NCBI GenBank assembly: GCA_002070905.1
Contig: MWEF01000001.1
Location: 62,001-126,000 of the forward strand
Origin: Tenericutes bacterium ADurb.Bin087
GTDB taxonomy: Bacteria > Bacillota_I > Bacilli_A > RFN20 > CAG-826
Length of the DNA: 64,000 nt
Reading direction: 5' to 3'
The position numbers were made by a program, and so were the translations under genes. The notes beneath the pieces were generated by a model. It was not told the DNA's origin, did not search any database, and saw only the letters and a list, made by a program, of their open reading frames with translations. Shown one piece after another: positions 3,290-37,456 of the stretch (positions are counted from its first letter, which is position 1; each line of letters begins with the position of its first letter).

Positions 3290-3673
3290 ATGGAAAAAAA
3301 GAAACGCAATCGCTTAATCTCGTGGCTCGTTTTAAGTGGTGTGACCCTTAGCGCGGCGACTTTAATTCTCGTTTTGCGCAATGACTACACTACGCGCGGA
3401 TTTAGTGATGCAACCTTTATTCCTGGGGTTGTCGTCTTATTCTTATTTCTCTTGCGATTAGTACGAGATGCTGGTGTCTTTGATCTTGTCTCATATAGCT
3501 TCGCGCGCATCTTCCAAGGCACAAAAGAAAAGTCGCTTGAGGGCATGAAAACGGCGAGTGAATATGTCGAAGGCAAAAAAGAAGAACGCTTAAAAAAAGA
3601 TCGTTATTACCTACCATATATTATTATTGCCGCACTCTTTTTAGTCGTTGGGGCAATCTTAGCGTATCTCTAA
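3290..3673 (+). CDS. DUF3899 membrane protein
   Basis: Small membrane protein of 127 residues with three predicted transmembrane segments (about 8-27, 44-60 and 105-126). The central stretch GVFDLVSYSF followed by MKTASEYVE matches my recollection of DUF3899 (Pfam PF13038), a family of unknown function often found next to opp genes in Firmicutes. It begins 2 bp after the oppF stop codon and ends at a strong terminator, so it is the last gene of the opp operon. The context suggests an accessory role in the transporter, but nothing in the sequence proves this. Confidence 0.8.
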   Translation: MEKKKRNRLISWLVLSGVTLSAATLILVLRNDYTTRGFSDATFIPGVVVLFLFLLRLVRDAGVFDLVSYSFARIFQGTKEKSLEGMKTASEYVEGKKEERLKKDRYYLPYIIIAALFLVVGAILAYL

Positions 3674-3728: not shown

Positions 3729-4271
3729 TTATTGTTTTTTATATAGTTCGGTATCAAAGTCGGCATCAGCGTATTTATGGGCGATCGAACTAGCGGCGGC
3801 AGCGGCGATTGCGCCAACGATATCATCAAGGAATGTATTAACTACGGTTCCATTTGTTTTATCATCTAATTCACCCATAATGCCAGGTTTTACTTTGTCA
3901 ACATAACCAAAATTCGTCGAGCCAATTGAGCCATAAACATTGACGATCGAGAGTGCTAAAATTTCATCGATGCCATAGAGCCCATAATCGCTAGCAATAA
4001 TCGTTTGTAATGGTTCACTAAGCATTCCCTTCTCCGCAAGAATATCAAGTTCTAAACCGGTTAAAATGGCGTTTTGTACTTCGCGTTTCTTTAGAACACG
4101 TTTAACGTGATCTAGACAAACATCCATTTCTAAATCAGGAATATATTTAATTTGCAAATGATATGTAATATCCGCAATGTCAAGCTCAGTAACACCACGT
4201 CTTTCTAAACGGTCAACGATTACAACATATTTCTTTTCATCATTCATCCGATTTCTTGTTTCATGATCCAT
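3729..4271 (-). CDS. Phosphatidylglycerophosphatase A / YutG-family protein
   Basis: 180 residues, matching the PgpA/YutG family (PF04608). Members dephosphorylate phosphatidylglycerophosphate in phospholipid synthesis, or are of unproven function in Bacilli (YutG). Family blocks visible: RRGVTELDIADI near the N-terminus, LKKREVQNAILTG, a LYGIDEILALSIVNVYGSIG block followed by TNFGYVDK, and TFLDDIVGAIAAAAAS, with Asp/Glu residues that are metal-ligand candidates. The ATG at 4271 is chosen because a GAGGAGG site lies 9 bp upstream; the longer frame would translate that site as MRRKS. Monocistronic, convergent with the opp operon. Confidence 0.82.
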   Translation of the reverse strand: MDHETRNRMNDEKKYVVIVDRLERRGVTELDIADITYHLQIKYIPDLEMDVCLDHVKRVLKKREVQNAILTGLELDILAEKGMLSEPLQTIIASDYGLYGIDEILALSIVNVYGSIGSTNFGYVDKVKPGIMGELDDKTNGTVVNTFLDDIVGAIAAAAASSIAHKYADADFDTELYKKQ

Positions 4272-4399
4272 ATTACTTTTCCTCCTCATAGTTATATATA
4301 AATAAATTGTGTCACACCTAATTAAAAATAAAAATTTAATCAGTGCTAAAGAATACCATAAAGGCGGTAGGAGGCAAAGTGAAATGATAAGTTATTTTT

Positions 4400-6220
4400 T
4401 TATGGCGCTGTTTGTTGTCGTGGTGGGAATTTAGTTGTGCTATAACTATTTTCTTTAACCCCAACAGTACCAGTTAAAGTATTATTAATCACAAAACCAG
4501 CTGGCTCACTATAAAAATATACTTTTCCATCATTATTTGGATAATCAAGCATATTGAAATAGGCATTACCACTATAAACACCATCAAAATCAAGATGGAT
4601 TTTTTTTGGTACATAATCTGCGGGTGTCAAGTCTTCAAGTGTACCCGCATTTGTGTAATACGTAAAATCAACGCCCTTAATTTGCGAATTACCGCCACCA
4701 CCGCCTTCACTTGTCCCACTTAAGGATAAATAGAAGAAGCCTGCACTTGTTGCGGGTAAGTAACTTGATGTGCCAATTAAAAATTCATAGCCCGCTGCCG
4801 CCATCGCTTGCGGAATAATAAAGTCGAAGTAAATGGCTTGGCGATTACCTAACGTTCCTTTAATAATCGCAAACCGTGTTTCGCGTAAGTTAGTGACATT
4901 ACCATTAACACGTAGAAATGACCAAACCGAAATACATTCTTCGTCCCCGCCTTGGTTACTACGGAAGAAAGAGAGTGCCGATTTACCGCCCACAAGTGGT
5001 TTAAACCAAATTGTATTACGGGGTGCATCTTGGCCAAAGGCACCTGCAGGTAAAGCGACAGCGTTATTGAATTGGCCTTGGGCATTAACACTCGGAATTG
5101 GTGTGCCATAGCCAAACATTACACTGCGCGCGCGACCACTATTAAGCACTGTTCTTGTGCGTAACCAATAGTCTTCGGCGACTAAATTTTGATAGTTTGA
5201 TGCTGTAATTGTCGTTAATGGCGCGGCATCAGTACGGATTACTTGGTTGTTATTCGGATCAACTGTCACACTAGCGCCAAACTTTAAGAACGCAGAGTTA
5301 CTTGCATTAATATTCGTGGAAGTCATTGTTAATGTTCCAATGTAATAGGCACGTCCTAATAATGAATCAGGGACTTGGATAACACTTGGATAATTAATTG
5401 TCGTAAAGAGATTAGACGGATTATTTGGGTCAATAATTAAGTTGCCACCAGGATCATCAGCGGGCACATCAACCCATTCGACATTCGGCCCTAATTTGCC
5501 GATTAAAACGTATTCACTCTCGGTTTGATGTGCAGAAGAACCAAGACTTATTTTCGCGTTTTTAACACCAACAGCTTGTAAGAAACCATCGACTAGACCA
5601 CCGACAATCCCAACATGACTATTAGCGACTTTATTTGTTATTTCAATGTTTTCTAAATAGAAATGACTAGCGGATCCAATGACACTTCCATCGGCATTTT
5701 GGCCAATATTCCCAAAGAAACCAATTGAGGCCCCGACATTTAATGATGTAAAGTTCATTGGTTTTTCTTTCCAGTCTAATGGATCACTTGATACCCAGAG
5801 ATTTTTAATTGTTTTGCCGTTACCGTCAAAATTGCCATAAAAAGGATAAGTATCTGTGCCAATCGGTGGGACCGCTCCGCTTGTATTCCCAACAAAGCCA
5901 GTAAGTGTCCCCGCCATATTAATATCATTTTGTAATTTAAAATATGTTTTTGCAGTAGATGGATAAAGCCCACTGTTTTGGAGCCAAGAGAAGTTGTAAA
6001 CATGACGCGGGGTAGCAATTAAATAGGGATCACTTTCTGTGCCTGTGCCGCCTGCATAATAGTTACTAATTGAACTTGCCGCCATACTTGTATTAAAGTT
6101 CAAAATTGTCGTAAACCAAGCAGTCGTTGTTAATGAAAACGCTGAAATAACGAGCGCCATGAAAGAACAAACGGTAACAAAAAAACTAACAATTAATTTA
6201 CGCGCGTCTTTTCCTTTCAT
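4400..6220 (-). CDS. Anchored surface protein (GLUG/AWF type) controlled by a c-di-GMP riboswitch
   Basis: 606-residue putative surface protein. The ATG at 6220 has an AAAGGAG site 8 bp upstream; a GTG three codons earlier is unlikely. An N-terminal hydrophobic segment (about 8-32) ends in TTTAWFTT, a pattern seen in SipW-type or TasA-like signal regions of Firmicute surface proteins. Next comes GGTGTESDPYLI and a repeat region rich in NDINM, FDGNGKTI and FFGNIG, resembling GLUG-type beta-helical adhesin modules, then a Ser/Thr/Gly-rich C-terminal half without an LPxTG motif. Its paralog lies immediately upstream on the same strand (6490-8301). It has its own promoter and c-di-GMP-I riboswitch. 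The adhesin role is inference; residues 50-230 are very similar between the paralogs. Confidence 0.75.
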   Translation of the reverse strand: MKGKDARKLIVSFFVTVCSFMALVISAFSLTTTAWFTTILNFNTSMAASSISNYYAGGTGTESDPYLIATPRHVYNFSWLQNSGLYPSTAKTYFKLQNDINMAGTLTGFVGNTSGAVPPIGTDTYPFYGNFDGNGKTIKNLWVSSDPLDWKEKPMNFTSLNVGASIGFFGNIGQNADGSVIGSASHFYLENIEITNKVANSHVGIVGGLVDGFLQAVGVKNAKISLGSSAHQTESEYVLIGKLGPNVEWVDVPADDPGGNLIIDPNNPSNLFTTINYPSVIQVPDSLLGRAYYIGTLTMTSTNINASNSAFLKFGASVTVDPNNNQVIRTDAAPLTTITASNYQNLVAEDYWLRTRTVLNSGRARSVMFGYGTPIPSVNAQGQFNNAVALPAGAFGQDAPRNTIWFKPLVGGKSALSFFRSNQGGDEECISVWSFLRVNGNVTNLRETRFAIIKGTLGNRQAIYFDFIIPQAMAAAGYEFLIGTSSYLPATSAGFFYLSLSGTSEGGGGGNSQIKGVDFTYYTNAGTLEDLTPADYVPKKIHLDFDGVYSGNAYFNMLDYPNNDGKVYFYSEPAGFVINNTLTGTVGVKENSYSTTKFPPRQQTAP

Positions 6221-6241: not shown

Positions 6242-6284
6242 TTATAATAAAAGCCAGTCACCCAAATATTTATAGGTAACTGGC
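6242..6284 (-). terminator. Riboswitch expression-platform terminator
   Basis: On the minus strand a 10-bp stem GCCAGTTACC / GGTGACTGGC (one G-U pair) is followed by TTTTATT. Its 5' arm is the 3' strand of the aptamer, so aptamer folding and termination exclude each other. The predicted logic is an ON switch: c-di-GMP binding gives readthrough into the surface protein gene. Confidence 0.8.
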
Positions 6285-6345
6285 TATCTTCGCATGGTAA
6301 GACCCTTTAGCTTTGCGTCACTAAATTGCTCTAGTTTTGCCTTTA
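6274..6345 (-). promoter_or_regulatory. Cyclic-di-GMP-I (GEMM-I) riboswitch aptamer
   Basis: The minus-strand RNA carries GEMM-I hallmarks in order: GGCAAAACTAGA, a GNRA tetraloop GCAA closed by CTAGA/TTTAG, the core GACGCAAAGCTAAAGGGTCT, then GATAGCCAGTTACC closing the aptamer. It lies between a consensus promoter and the surface protein gene at 4400-6220 and overlaps a terminator. A covariance search with Rfam RF01051 would settle the call. Confidence 0.88.
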
Positions 6346-6354
6346 TCTAGCCAC

Positions 6355-6383
6355 ATTATAAAGAAAAATGTTATCGTTGTCAA
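6355..6383 (-). promoter_or_regulatory. Consensus sigma-A promoter for riboswitch and surface protein
   Basis: On the minus strand a perfect TTGACA is separated by 17 bp from a perfect TATAAT; transcription would begin just upstream of the aptamer. Confidence 0.9.
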
Positions 6384-6489
6384 TAATTCTCGGTAATTTT
6401 TTCTATATTAAATATAGTACTAAACGGTGTTATTTTAAAAGTCATCATTTAAGTTGCTAAAAATTTAAATTGTAAATTTGTTGAAAAAT

Positions 6490-8301
6490 TTAAGTTTCTT
6501 GGCGCGGTGGGAATAATGTTGAACTGTAACTTGTAGCGTGCACCCCAACAGTGCCCGTCAAGTTATTAGTAACAACAAATGTGGATGGGTCAGTGAAGAA
6601 GTAGACCTTCCCATCATAATTTGGATGATCTTTCATATTAAAATAAGCATTTCCATAATAAGAACCATTAAAATCAAAGTGCACTTTTTTCGGGATGTAA
6701 TTTGGATCAGCTAAATTTTCAAGAGTACCAGCGCTTGTATAATAAGTCCAGTCGACACTTTGTACTTGCGCGTTGTTGTCGCCTCCGCTTTCGTCTGTTC
6801 CCGAAAGTGATAAATACATAAAGCCCGCACTAGTTGCTGGTAAGTAACTTGAAATACCGACAACAAATTCATAACCTTCAGCCGCCATCGCTTGCGGAAT
6901 AACAAAGTCAATATAGACACCTTCTCTGTTCCCAAGTGTTCCTTTAATAATGGCGAAGCGTGTTTCTTTTAAGTTGGTGATTTGATTATTGACACGTTTA
7001 TAGTGATAAACCGAAATACATTCTTCATCCCCACCTTGGTTATTACGGAAGAAGGAAAGACCAGAAGTCCCGCCTGTCAGTGGTTTGAACCAAATGGTAT
7101 TACGCGGTGCGTTTGGCGCGAGCGCTTCGGCAGGTAAGTTAACAGGATAATTCCATTGGCCTTGGGCATTAATTGCTGGCGCATACGCTGGATTAACAGT
7201 ACTGCCAAACATCACCGACCGTACGGAGCTACGGGAATAAATATCTTGAATACGTTGCCACTAATGATCAGTAACATATTGCGCATAGTTTGCCGTAGTA
7301 AGTTGAACCATTGGCGCGGCATCAGTGCGCACGACTTGGTTAGCGTTTGGATTAACAGTTACAGTTTGTGTAAACTTTAAAAATTTAGAGTTGCTACGAT
7401 TAATGTTTGTGGATATTAATATCGAATCACCAACATAATAAGCACGCCCAATGATGGAGTCAGGTGCTTGCACAACGTTAGGATAATAAATACTGTTGTA
7501 CACAGTTTGCTCGCGGTTAGGGTCAATAAGTAAATTACCGCCAACGTTATCACCAGGCACATCAAGCCATTCAACATTTGGGCCTAATTTACCAATCAAG
7601 ACATATTCACTAGTAACTTGGTGGGCTGTTGTGCCTAAACTAATCTTGGCATTTTTCACCCCAATTGCATGGACGTTGCCGTTGACAAGGCCGACAACAA
7701 TCCCCGCATGGCTATTAGCAACTTTATCGGTCACTTCAATATTTTCTAAGTAGAAGTTGCTCGCTTCACCAATAATTGCCCCGTCGTTTAATTGACCAAT
7801 ATTACCAAAAAATCCAATTGAGGCACCAACATTAACATATTCGTAGCCCCCTGGTTTTTCTTTCCAATCTAAAGGATCACTTGAGACCCATAAATTTTTG
7901 ATCGTTTTACCATTGCCATCAAACGTTCCATAAAATGGATGTTGGTCTGTGCCGATTGGTGGAACCGCACCGCTTGTATTCCCAACAAAGCCAGTAAGTG
8001 TCCCTGCCATATTAATATCATTTTGTAATTTAAAATATGTTTTGCTAGGATAAACGCCGTTATTTTGCAACCATGCAAAGTTATAGACGTGTCGTGGAGT
8101 AGCAATTAAAAATGGATCAGTTTGTGTGCCTGTGCCGCCTGCATAATAGTTACTGATTGAACTTGCGTCCGTATTAGTGTTAAAACGCAAGATAGTTGTA
8201 AACCACGCCGTAGTAGTAAAGGCCATTGTGGAAATAATAAGTGCCATAAAAGAAGACACGGTAATTAAAGAGGCAAGAATAATTTTCTTGAAGTTACGCA
8301 T
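6490..8301 (-). pseudogene. Second GLUG/AWF surface protein paralog, interrupted by in-frame TAG
   Basis: A paralog of the surface protein at 4400-6220, read in two parts. The N-terminal 346 codons (8301-7264) and the C-terminal 241 codons (7215-6490) are in the same frame. Between them are a single TAG (7261-7263) and 15 further codons reading WQRIQDIYSRSSVRSV, which align with the intact paralog (WLRTRTVLNSGRARSV). The stop sits where the paralog has Tyr, so one TAT/TAC-to-TAG change explains it. The N-terminal anchor again ends in TTTAWFTT. The ATG at 8301 is 2 bp after the stop of the 8304-9032 gene, so both share the upstream riboswitch. The truncated product could still be exported as a 346-residue protein. 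Confidence 0.82.
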
Positions 8302-8303
8302 AA

Positions 8304-9032
8304 TTAAATTGCCGCTCCATCACCAATATAGTAAATAATATCATCAGCGTAAACAACTTCGCGGATTTCAGAAGCACGGGCAGTGTTAATATAATTCATA
8401 ATTGCTTCGTTGTATTCAATGACAAACCATAAGGTTGAACTACCAGCATAAAGTGTAGCAATAGTAGTGCTTGTAGCTTTGACAGGTGTTGGACTTAATG
8501 TGACTAAACACTCTGCATCGGCATTTGTCGTGGAAATAGTTGCACTAGACCATGAATCAGCTAATGTAATACCAGGACTCGGTGTAAATTGGTAAATATT
8601 GCTTGTATAGTTATCATCATAAGGATTACTGCCTGTTGTCCCTGTTGTAAACGTTGCGACCGTTGTTTTAGCACCGAAAACCGTATTACTAGTAGCGCCA
8701 TACTCATAAGTGGCATGTACAACAAGTGCGCGTTGATATTGTGAGTAAGCAATGTCATTTGGATCGTATTTTGGCATTTCTAAGGCTGGGGTATTAGCAA
8801 ATGTAAAAGAAGAAGTGGTCGGGCCTTTTGTCATACTTGTGACAGGATAAACGTTATATTCCGTTATATAAAAATCAGGAGCGGTAACTTCAATTGTCGT
8901 TAGATGGACTTGGGCATTTCTAACATTTGCAAACCAAGCAACAGTAAAACCAGTAAAGGAAACAAGTATCCCTAAAAGAATGAGTAAGTTCATTGTAATC
9001 AGGATTAAAGTTTTCCGCCGTGCTTTATTCAA
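8304..9032 (-). CDS. Small anchored surface protein with AWF motif, first gene after c-di-GMP riboswitch
   Basis: 242 residues from a TTG at 9032, chosen because AGGGG lies about 10 bp upstream and the start then sits just before a typical export signal (KARRK, hydrophobic 8-31, then TVAWFANV). An ATG at 9089 adds 19 residues but has no ribosome site. The AWF motif after the hydrophobic segment is shared with the two neighbouring surface proteins and recalls TasA/SipW-dependent proteins. The rest is Thr/Ser-rich with no motif I can name. It leads a two-gene operon with the interrupted paralog. A fibre subunit or assembly partner for the larger proteins is plausible but only inferred. Confidence 0.68.
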   Translation of the reverse strand: MNKARRKTLILITMNLLILLGILVSFTGFTVAWFANVRNAQVHLTTIEVTAPDFYITEYNVYPVTSMTKGPTTSSFTFANTPALEMPKYDPNDIAYSQYQRALVVHATYEYGATSNTVFGAKTTVATFTTGTTGSNPYDDNYTSNIYQFTPSPGITLADSWSSATISTTNADAECLVTLSPTPVKATSTTIATLYAGSSTLWFVIEYNEAIMNYINTARASEIREVVYADDIIYYIGDGAAI

Positions 9033-9100
9033 TATATTTATGCCCCTTAAGTATTTTCTAATAGAGCAACTATCTTTATTATGACACATTTATTGCGTAT

Positions 9101-9136
9101 AAAAAACAGCCACCTATCTTAAGTTTCGGTAGCTGG
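9101..9136 (-). terminator. Riboswitch expression-platform terminator (second copy)
   Basis: The minus strand shows CAGCTACC / GGTGGCTG (8 bp, one G-U pair) followed by TTTTTT. The 5' arm is part of the aptamer's closing strand, the same ON-switch architecture as the first copy. Confidence 0.8.
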
Positions 9137-9197
9137 CTATCTTACTTGTGAAGACCCTATAGTTTTGCGTCATCAGATTGCTCTAATTTTGCCCTTT
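9127..9197 (-). promoter_or_regulatory. Second cyclic-di-GMP-I (GEMM-I) riboswitch aptamer
   Basis: Minus-strand RNA: GGGCAAAATTAGA, GNRA loop GCAA closed by ATTAGA/TCTGAT, core GACGCAAAACTATAGGGTCT, then GATAGCCAGCTACCG. Same order and spacing as the aptamer at 6274-6345 but with many compensating or loop differences, so it is an independent conserved structure and not a fresh copy. It controls 8304-9032 and the interrupted paralog. Confidence 0.87.
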
Positions 9198-9207
9198 TAC
9201 AATAGTA

Positions 9208-9235
9208 ATTATATAGAAACTATTTAATTTGTCAA
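9208..9235 (-). promoter_or_regulatory. Promoter for second riboswitch operon
   Basis: Minus strand TTGACA, 16-bp spacer, TATAAT, just upstream of the aptamer. Confidence 0.85.
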
Positions 9236-36478: not shown

Positions 36479-37456
36479 GTGAAGTGGGTAGAAGAATTAC
36501 AATCGAAATATGATGTAAACATATTATATGATGTCTTTTTACGTGAAAATGATTCACTTTATTTTCTTGTTGAAGAAGGACATAAAATATGCGATAAACC
36601 ACTGCTTAAATTATTTGGCTCGTGCGCTAATGTTGGGTTACCACATTGTGTTAAAACACTAGACGAATTATTTAGTTATATTGATGTTAAGAGCCAAATA
36701 TGTGATATTCGTGGTGTTAAAGAATATATTACTGAATTACATCGTGAAATCGATAGTGATCAAACACGCGTTGTACTCTATCTGCCACTAGATTTTTGTG
36801 GTAATAAAAAGTATTTAGAACTTGTAATTATTAAAATGTTTAAACGTAATGTCTCAATCGTTGTCCTTAATCAAATTGATATGAAGAAAGTTAATGTTGA
36901 ATCACTTTATTTTGAATCTTATAAAGATAGTTTGACTGGGCTTTTCAATTTTAGCACCTTAATGTTCCACATAAACAAGACGACGAACAATCATTATTTT
37001 GGTTTTATTGATTTAGATTATTTTAAAATTGTTAATGATACCTTCGGCCATAAAGTTGGTGATGATGTACTCGCAAGAGTTGGCCGCGTTTTAATTGAAA
37101 TCGCTGATGATACAGTTATTATGTATCGCAAAAGTGGGGACGAATTCATCTTCATGACACTCGGGCTTAATTTTGAAGAAACAAAAAAACTCGTGAAGCG
37201 GATTCAAAACGCAATTCGCTCCGTTGAATTACCAAACATTAAGGTTAATTGTTCCATTGGTGTCGCTGAATATCGTCATAATAATGGGCATTATAGCGCG
37301 CACGATGCTGTTAATATTGCGGACGTGGCGATGTATGTTTCTAAATCAACAGGGCGGGGGTCAGTTACTTATTTTAAAGAAGCAGAAGCTAAAAAAATAA
37401 TTGATTCTGGACCGCTTGAAAAGACATTAGAATTACTTGAAGCAAGGGCGCGCTAA
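36479..37456 (+). CDS. GGDEF-domain protein, probable diguanylate cyclase
   Basis: 325 residues from a GTG with GAGGT 10 bp upstream. The N-terminal 145 residues form a sensor-like domain I cannot name, with no membrane helix. The GGDEF domain starts at DSLTGLFNF (about 150) and includes FIDLDYFKIVNDTFGH and the active site SGDEF (about 219), one of the forms found in active cyclases. The RxxD inhibitory site is absent: a Val occupies the Asp position. It would make c-di-GMP, the ligand of the two riboswitches elsewhere in the window. It is monocistronic between the lacI gene and a terminator. Confidence 0.87.
   Translation: MKWVEELQSKYDVNILYDVFLRENDSLYFLVEEGHKICDKPLLKLFGSCANVGLPHCVKTLDELFSYIDVKSQICDIRGVKEYITELHREIDSDQTRVVLYLPLDFCGNKKYLELVIIKMFKRNVSIVVLNQIDMKKVNVESLYFESYKDSLTGLFNFSTLMFHINKTTNNHYFGFIDLDYFKIVNDTFGHKVGDDVLARVGRVLIEIADDTVIMYRKSGDEFIFMTLGLNFEETKKLVKRIQNAIRSVELPNIKVNCSIGVAEYRHNNGHYSAHDAVNIADVAMYVSKSTGRGSVTYFKEAEAKKIIDSGPLEKTLELLEARAR

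Follow-up and report, generated by a model that had tools for sequence, protein, structure and literature searches.

Known riboswitches upstream of surface protein genes

The Bc2 riboswitch of Bacillus thuringiensis/cereus, found upstream of cap/cbpA, is a reported ON switch (PMC4933901, PMC7423583) that combines a c-di-GMP-I aptamer with an intrinsic terminator and controls a collagen-binding, cell-wall-anchored surface protein. In the pilM riboswitch of Geobacter metallireducens, also an ON switch, the 3' strand of the aptamer forms the terminator (A pairs with H) and the C that pairs with the ligand is captured in it (PMC9262584). Riboswitches of class II located upstream of CD630_28310 and CD630_32460 in Clostridioides difficile allow c-di-GMP to raise the expression of predicted surface adhesins (PMC6366702).

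We examined a stretch of 64,000 nucleotides (the window) in contig MWEF01000001.1 of Tenericutes bacterium ADurb.Bin087. The genome (G000) is a MAG of 1.09 Mb in 50 contigs that is 88% complete and represents an uncultured species of small-genome Bacilli. It was compared with the genomes of its taxonomic family, 196 in all, from which 69 loci matching the Rfam model RF01051 were collected; no cultured representative of the family was found. The two riboswitches in the window share with Bc2 the aptamer class, the intrinsic terminator and a surface protein target. They differ from it in that their targets, AWF proteins that have no annotation, carry a domain like that of PDB 3n6z, and in that the position equivalent to G20 is A in Bc2 and G in the window aptamers. 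They share with pilM the use of the aptamer 3' strand in the terminator, whereas pilM has cGAMP as its ligand, a pilus operon as its target and a Gram-negative host (PMC9262584). The C. difficile examples differ in aptamer class and in having sortase-anchored products (PMC6366702). With good confidence, we interpret the two window riboswitches as transcriptional c-di-GMP ON switches for exported AWF surface proteins, which are likely to serve an attachment or aggregation layer.

Aptamers, promoters and terminators

The RF01051 covariance model, run over the entire window, detected two aptamers on the minus strand, RS1 at positions 6272–6351 (61.5 bits, E 1.4e-9) and RS2 at positions 9125–9203 (60.0 bits, E 3.1e-9), each matching model positions 1–87. 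The Rfam gathering score is 35 bits and is exceeded by about 25 bits in both cases, confirming the c-di-GMP-I identity proposed for both leaders in the preliminary description. A third copy, RS3, was found on a separate contig of the same genome (G000:C20:5007–5083, 66.9 bits). The equivalents of G20 and A47 are kept in RS1, RS2 and RS3, and near the 3' end of each is an ACC that contains what we take to be the equivalent of C92, the Vc2 numbering being our own presumed mapping. Judged by sequence, both window copies are genuine c-di-GMP-I riboswitches and ordinary representatives of the known class.

Both aptamers start about 4 bases downstream of a promoter on the same strand. The promoters, TTGACA-17-TATAAT at 6355–6383 for RS1 and TTGACA-16-TATAAT at 9208–9235 for RS2, had been described as near-perfect and each matches the consensus at 12/12 positions; they are the sole 12/12 matches between positions 3600 and 9500. 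The intrinsic terminator of RS1 (6252–6285, minus strand) has 13 pairs, a loop of 8 and a T-run; the aptamer 3' strand serves as its 5' arm, AGCCAGTTACC. In RS2 the terminator (9105–9141, minus strand) has the 5' arm GATAGCCAGCTA, which is again the aptamer 3' strand, and the same overlap is seen in RS3, so that the sharing of the aptamer closing strand that had been noted for the two window leaders extends to all three copies in this genome. The isolated terminator segments fold at −22.8 (RS1), −18.4 (RS2) and −18.2 kcal/mol (RS3, where the segment also includes further pairing). No separate antiterminator was visible in these three leaders.

The terminator and the folded aptamer are mutually exclusive and, because ligand binding should block termination, the riboswitches are predicted to be ON switches, in agreement with the direction of response that had been suggested. 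Transcription would start just 5' of the aptamer. When c-di-GMP is low, the downstream complement would capture the aptamer 3' strand (AGCCAG..ACC), including the C92 equivalent that is the presumed ligand contact, and the intrinsic terminator would form. When it is high, the strand would be held by the aptamer, the terminator could not form and the genes for the exported AWF surface proteins would be transcribed. In the simplest reading, the bound ligand retains the strand in the aptamer so that transcription can read through, which is what the pilM report describes (PMC9262584) and which matches the report on Bc2 in outcome (PMC4933901).

The same architecture is widespread in the family. 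Using one scoring rule, a terminator overlapping the aptamer with a score of 16 or more was found at 53 of 68 family sites, compared with 3.5% of block shuffles. At these 53 sites the fit was 22.1 with the site's own aptamer and 18.4 with the aptamers of other sites (permutation z 10.8), a contrast that kinship between the sites should weaken rather than create.

Genes downstream of the riboswitches

RS1 leads a single large gene (4400–6220, minus strand), with an ATG at 6220 behind AAAGGAG, that encodes a 606-aa protein with an N-terminal helix, an AWF motif and, spanning about residues 50–230, a beta-rich domain that is 3n6z/GLUG-like. RS2 leads two genes on the minus strand. The first (8304–9032) encodes a 242-aa AWF protein, and its start is most likely the TTG at 9032, which was chosen because it has AAGGGG upstream and corresponds to the start of an 82%-identical relative. 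The second (6490–8301) encodes a paralogue of the 606-aa protein, with 71% and 69% identity to it over two parts, and includes an in-frame TAG at 7261–7263. Paralogues had been thought to be the first genes of both riboswitches, which is incorrect as the 242-aa protein is unrelated to the RS1 target. RS3 leads genes for proteins of 249, 241 and 1073 aa, which are of the same two types as the window targets. Every target of RS1, RS2 and RS3 opens with a hydrophobic helix that terminates in AWF or in a variant of this motif, consistent with their earlier description as AWF proteins with an export signal, export being predicted from sequence.

A relative in the same genus, G029 (DBRT01000024.1, Bacillales bacterium UBA1361; NCBI name Caryophanales bacterium UBA1361, Bacilli), includes an orthologue of the second large gene. 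The RS2-controlled copy is 88% identical to it, and the RS1-controlled copy is about equally distant from both. The position of the window TAG is Tyr in the G029 orthologue, and that gene has a different stop, a TAA (L075, about 5410), at a position read as Gln in the window copies. Each of the two orthologous large genes thus includes one, different, premature stop in a frame that is otherwise well conserved. The dN/dS between the two window copies is about 0.14, a rough ratio because dS is near saturation, and is similar before and after the stop, which indicates that the stop is either recent or an error. Stop-codon recoding of TAG was considered and is unlikely because all three stops, TAA, TAG and TGA, terminate ORFs in the window, and the broken genes are confined to surface or signalling functions.

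Riboswitch operons in the family

Among the 196 family genomes, RF01051 matches were found in 92 and GGDEF domains in 102. Both were present in 87 genomes and neither in 89, with 5 containing only the riboswitch and 15 only GGDEF, an association that is strong when phylogeny is ignored (Fisher p 5e-33). Four of the five riboswitch genomes without GGDEF (G040, G062, G079 and G091) belong to one genus and have weak matches. The fifth (G013) gave the highest c-di-GMP-I score of all, 81.5 bits; its contig is short, the target differs in kind and the match is perhaps contamination. A motif scan identified an AW/Y-motif protein in 64 of 67 family riboswitch operons, using a permissive rule that 1 of 46 other window ORFs also fits. 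The layout seen in the window (class A) was found in 40 of the 67 operons, and in three the riboswitch directly leads a GGDEF gene. This recurrence across the family, together with the co-occurrence with GGDEF, gives the surface-protein switch architecture stronger support than the preliminary description could have had.

A second class of operon was found in relatives. Its genes encode a small membrane protein with a basic start, one to three AWF/AWY proteins, a membrane protein that has an AAA+ P-loop, a companion protein and a SipW-like signal peptidase; in at least two genomes an EAL-type protein is also encoded. This operon recurs (L073, L082, L087, L107 and L111) and is possibly an undescribed surface-assembly system. 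In riboswitch genomes, 27 of 49 SipW-like matches lie on the same strand within 8 kb downstream of a riboswitch, mostly at 4.5–6.7 kb. The presence of SipW was rejected as a marker of co-occurrence, since it is common both in genomes that have riboswitches and in those that lack them; only its position in a riboswitch operon is informative. The second-class operon was not found in the ADurb.Bin087 assembly, where at 88% completeness its absence is not proven. Searches of the same 88%-complete genome gave no match for the class-B ATPase or for another AWF protein from the same genus, and only a match below cut-off that resembles a general signal peptidase I. Elsewhere in this genome (L125, 3384–9022, on contig C6), two long proteins with GLUG-like repeats, of 1200 and 656 aa, are encoded without a riboswitch or an AWF signal; their neighbours are a further pair of exported proteins and a regulator of the AraC type.

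We see about an even chance that, in this family, a c-di-GMP riboswitch regulon is dedicated to a surface-assembly system not described before, and that the module is gained and lost with the GGDEF genes. This regulon would comprise pairs of a small AWF protein and a large beta-rich protein and, in many members, the second riboswitch operon with its AWF proteins, membrane AAA+ ATPase, companion, SipW-like peptidase and EAL protein. A limited search of the open-access literature found no description of a clade-wide regulon of this kind.

Nature of the exported proteins

The full target proteins did not match any Pfam or NCBIfam family. The alignment consensus of the large proteins, PIGTEDYPFxGxFxGNGxxIxNLxV...IGxFG, is GLUG-like by eye, but none of 19 large-protein members matched Pfam GLUG (PF07581) at E 0.01. 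A profile of these 19 proteins matched PDB 3n6z, a putative IgA1 protease domain from Bacteroides ovatus (E 5.9e-10), and 3n6z was also the top Foldseek match to the AlphaFold model of the large protein (E 3e-4, prob 1.00), with a TM over the target of only 0.32. The models of the large and small target proteins both have low overall confidence, and that of the large protein is trustworthy only around residues 50–230. The profile and fold likeness to 3n6z thus concerns the N-terminal domain of the large proteins, and the window protein differs in having no visible protease signature and a different export signal. Of the GLUG-like repeats described previously, a beta-rich 3n6z-like domain in the large proteins remains, while membership of the Pfam GLUG family does not. 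The large proteins are probably exported, with a domain that we read as beta-rich and probably a solenoid. That they are anchored, as had been stated, is in doubt because the SipW-like peptidases of relatives could release such proteins.

From the c-di-GMP induction and the domain type we infer adhesion, and the products would most likely form a cell-surface or matrix layer that c-di-GMP induces and that serves in attachment or aggregation. The switch could also operate as described with products that are not adhesins, such as matrix fibres, proteins that bind or degrade glycans, or shed antigens, which we regard as a less likely yet serious alternative. Neither a sortase motif nor a known adhesin family was found in the target proteins, and the AWF motif together with the adjoining SipW-like peptidases in relatives resembles TasA/SipW matrix export, though neither class-A nor class-B AWF proteins matched the NCBIfam SipW-cognate or TasA/camelysin families. 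UBA1361 populations, which have been reported from biogas digesters, were also termed hydrolytic in these studies (PMC10356833, PMC11915838). On the other hand, beta-rich solenoid-like domains are typical of surface attachment, as is induction by c-di-GMP; the protease motif HExxH is absent from the 606-aa sequence on direct reading, and a second, weak Foldseek match was to the binding region of a Lactobacillus SRRP (E 0.11). An attachment or aggregation layer is the role that we consider most likely.

c-di-GMP enzymes and history of the locus

A candidate diguanylate cyclase gene is located at 36479–37456 on the plus strand (PF00990, 92.6 bits). The GGDEF protein placed about 30 kb away in the preliminary description is thus present, at 27.8 kb from the riboswitches, with a motif that reads SGDEF rather than GGDEF. 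SGDEF enzymes can be active, as for MbaA (PMC8079147), and the protein has Asp at the base-recognition position. It was one of four GGDEF loci found in this genome. A link between this cyclase and the switch was rejected: there is no proximity, the active site is SGDEF and three other GGDEF loci are available, so its inclusion in the switch could not be upheld. In relatives, 15 of the 116 GGDEF matches listed lie within 5 kb of a riboswitch where about 2 are expected, making riboswitch–GGDEF proximity meaningful there, and it is absent at 36479.

A PAS-GGEEF cyclase on contig C8 is intact and has the base-recognition Asp. A 7TM-GGDEF gene (C1:22385) is frameshifted, and 560 bp of it are identical in G029. 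Over this stretch the frameshifted gene (L012 7385–7792, L115) is 100% identical between the two genomes, yet the large surface protein is only 88% identical; recent exchange, a shared mobile stretch or cross-contamination of the MAGs are possible reasons. A GGDEF-EAL gene (C1:2653–4979), with a degenerate GGDEF, is also frameshifted. It is the only clear EAL phosphodiesterase of the genome, a second EAL match scoring below cut-off, and the circuit can no longer be called complete in this assembly. The two frameshifted genes may mean that the circuit is in decay in this lineage, or that the assembly is imperfect. The 88%-complete genome gave no PilZ match and, for this reason, the riboswitches may be the main c-di-GMP receptors.

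The island in the window is located between a PgpA-like gene (3729–4289) and a tRNA-gltX block. At this site G029 has one riboswitch with a small and a large gene. In a further genome of the genus (G073), all that is left of the large gene beside the same PgpA, tRNA and gltX genes is a remnant of 264 aa, indicating that the site is variable within the genus. This remnant, the in-frame TAG in the second large gene and the frameshifts in the 7TM-GGDEF and GGDEF-EAL genes would fit real riboswitches in a module that is decaying in this species, with a pseudogene target, partly broken enzymes and little present regulatory effect. We consider decay improbable, as the aptamers, promoters and terminators are all intact, as is the C8 cyclase, the dN/dS of about 0.14 on both sides of the TAG points to a recent stop or an error, and the breaks may be assembly errors in a MAG of 50 contigs. 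Working ON switches are the reading that we prefer.

Identity of the ligand

A was found at the G20 position in 36 of the 69 family aptamers, including the G029 aptamer at the site orthologous to RS2. A20 is the signature of the Geobacter cGAMP riboswitches. GEMM-Ib aptamers of Geobacter sense cGAMP (PMC8835794, PMC6456294). Hypr GGDEF enzymes, which synthesize cGAMP, are recognized by a change from Asp to Ser at the base-recognition position, where the window and C8 cyclases have Asp. Another cyclic dinucleotide such as 3',3'-cGAMP as ligand, at least for the A20 aptamers of relatives, is very improbable, since RS1, RS2 and RS3 are all G20, 35 of the 36 matched family GGDEF domains have the canonical Asp and not the Ser of Hypr enzymes (the remaining one has Asn), and Bc2 of B. 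thuringiensis, with an A predicted to contact one guanine, still responds to c-di-GMP (PMC4933901). Signalling by cGAMP, considered on account of the A20 aptamers, was rejected as it has no backing from Hypr-type enzymes and does not apply to aptamers with G20 such as those of the window. Given the canonical GGDEF domains and the Bc2 precedent, c-di-GMP is likely to be the ligand throughout the family, and the G20 aptamers in the window would be expected to bind it.

Implications for the family

The switch mechanism is already known from Bc2/cbpA and pilM, and what is new is the clade-wide regulon, including the SipW-like peptidase in relatives. Across the family, a single set of exported proteins without annotation appears to be under the control of nearly all the c-di-GMP-I riboswitches that were detected. 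The arrangement is repeated so consistently in relatives that it suggests a shared, dedicated surface programme assembled from known parts. A c-di-GMP-induced surface programme would also provide a functional handle on large protein families that have no Pfam or NCBIfam name.
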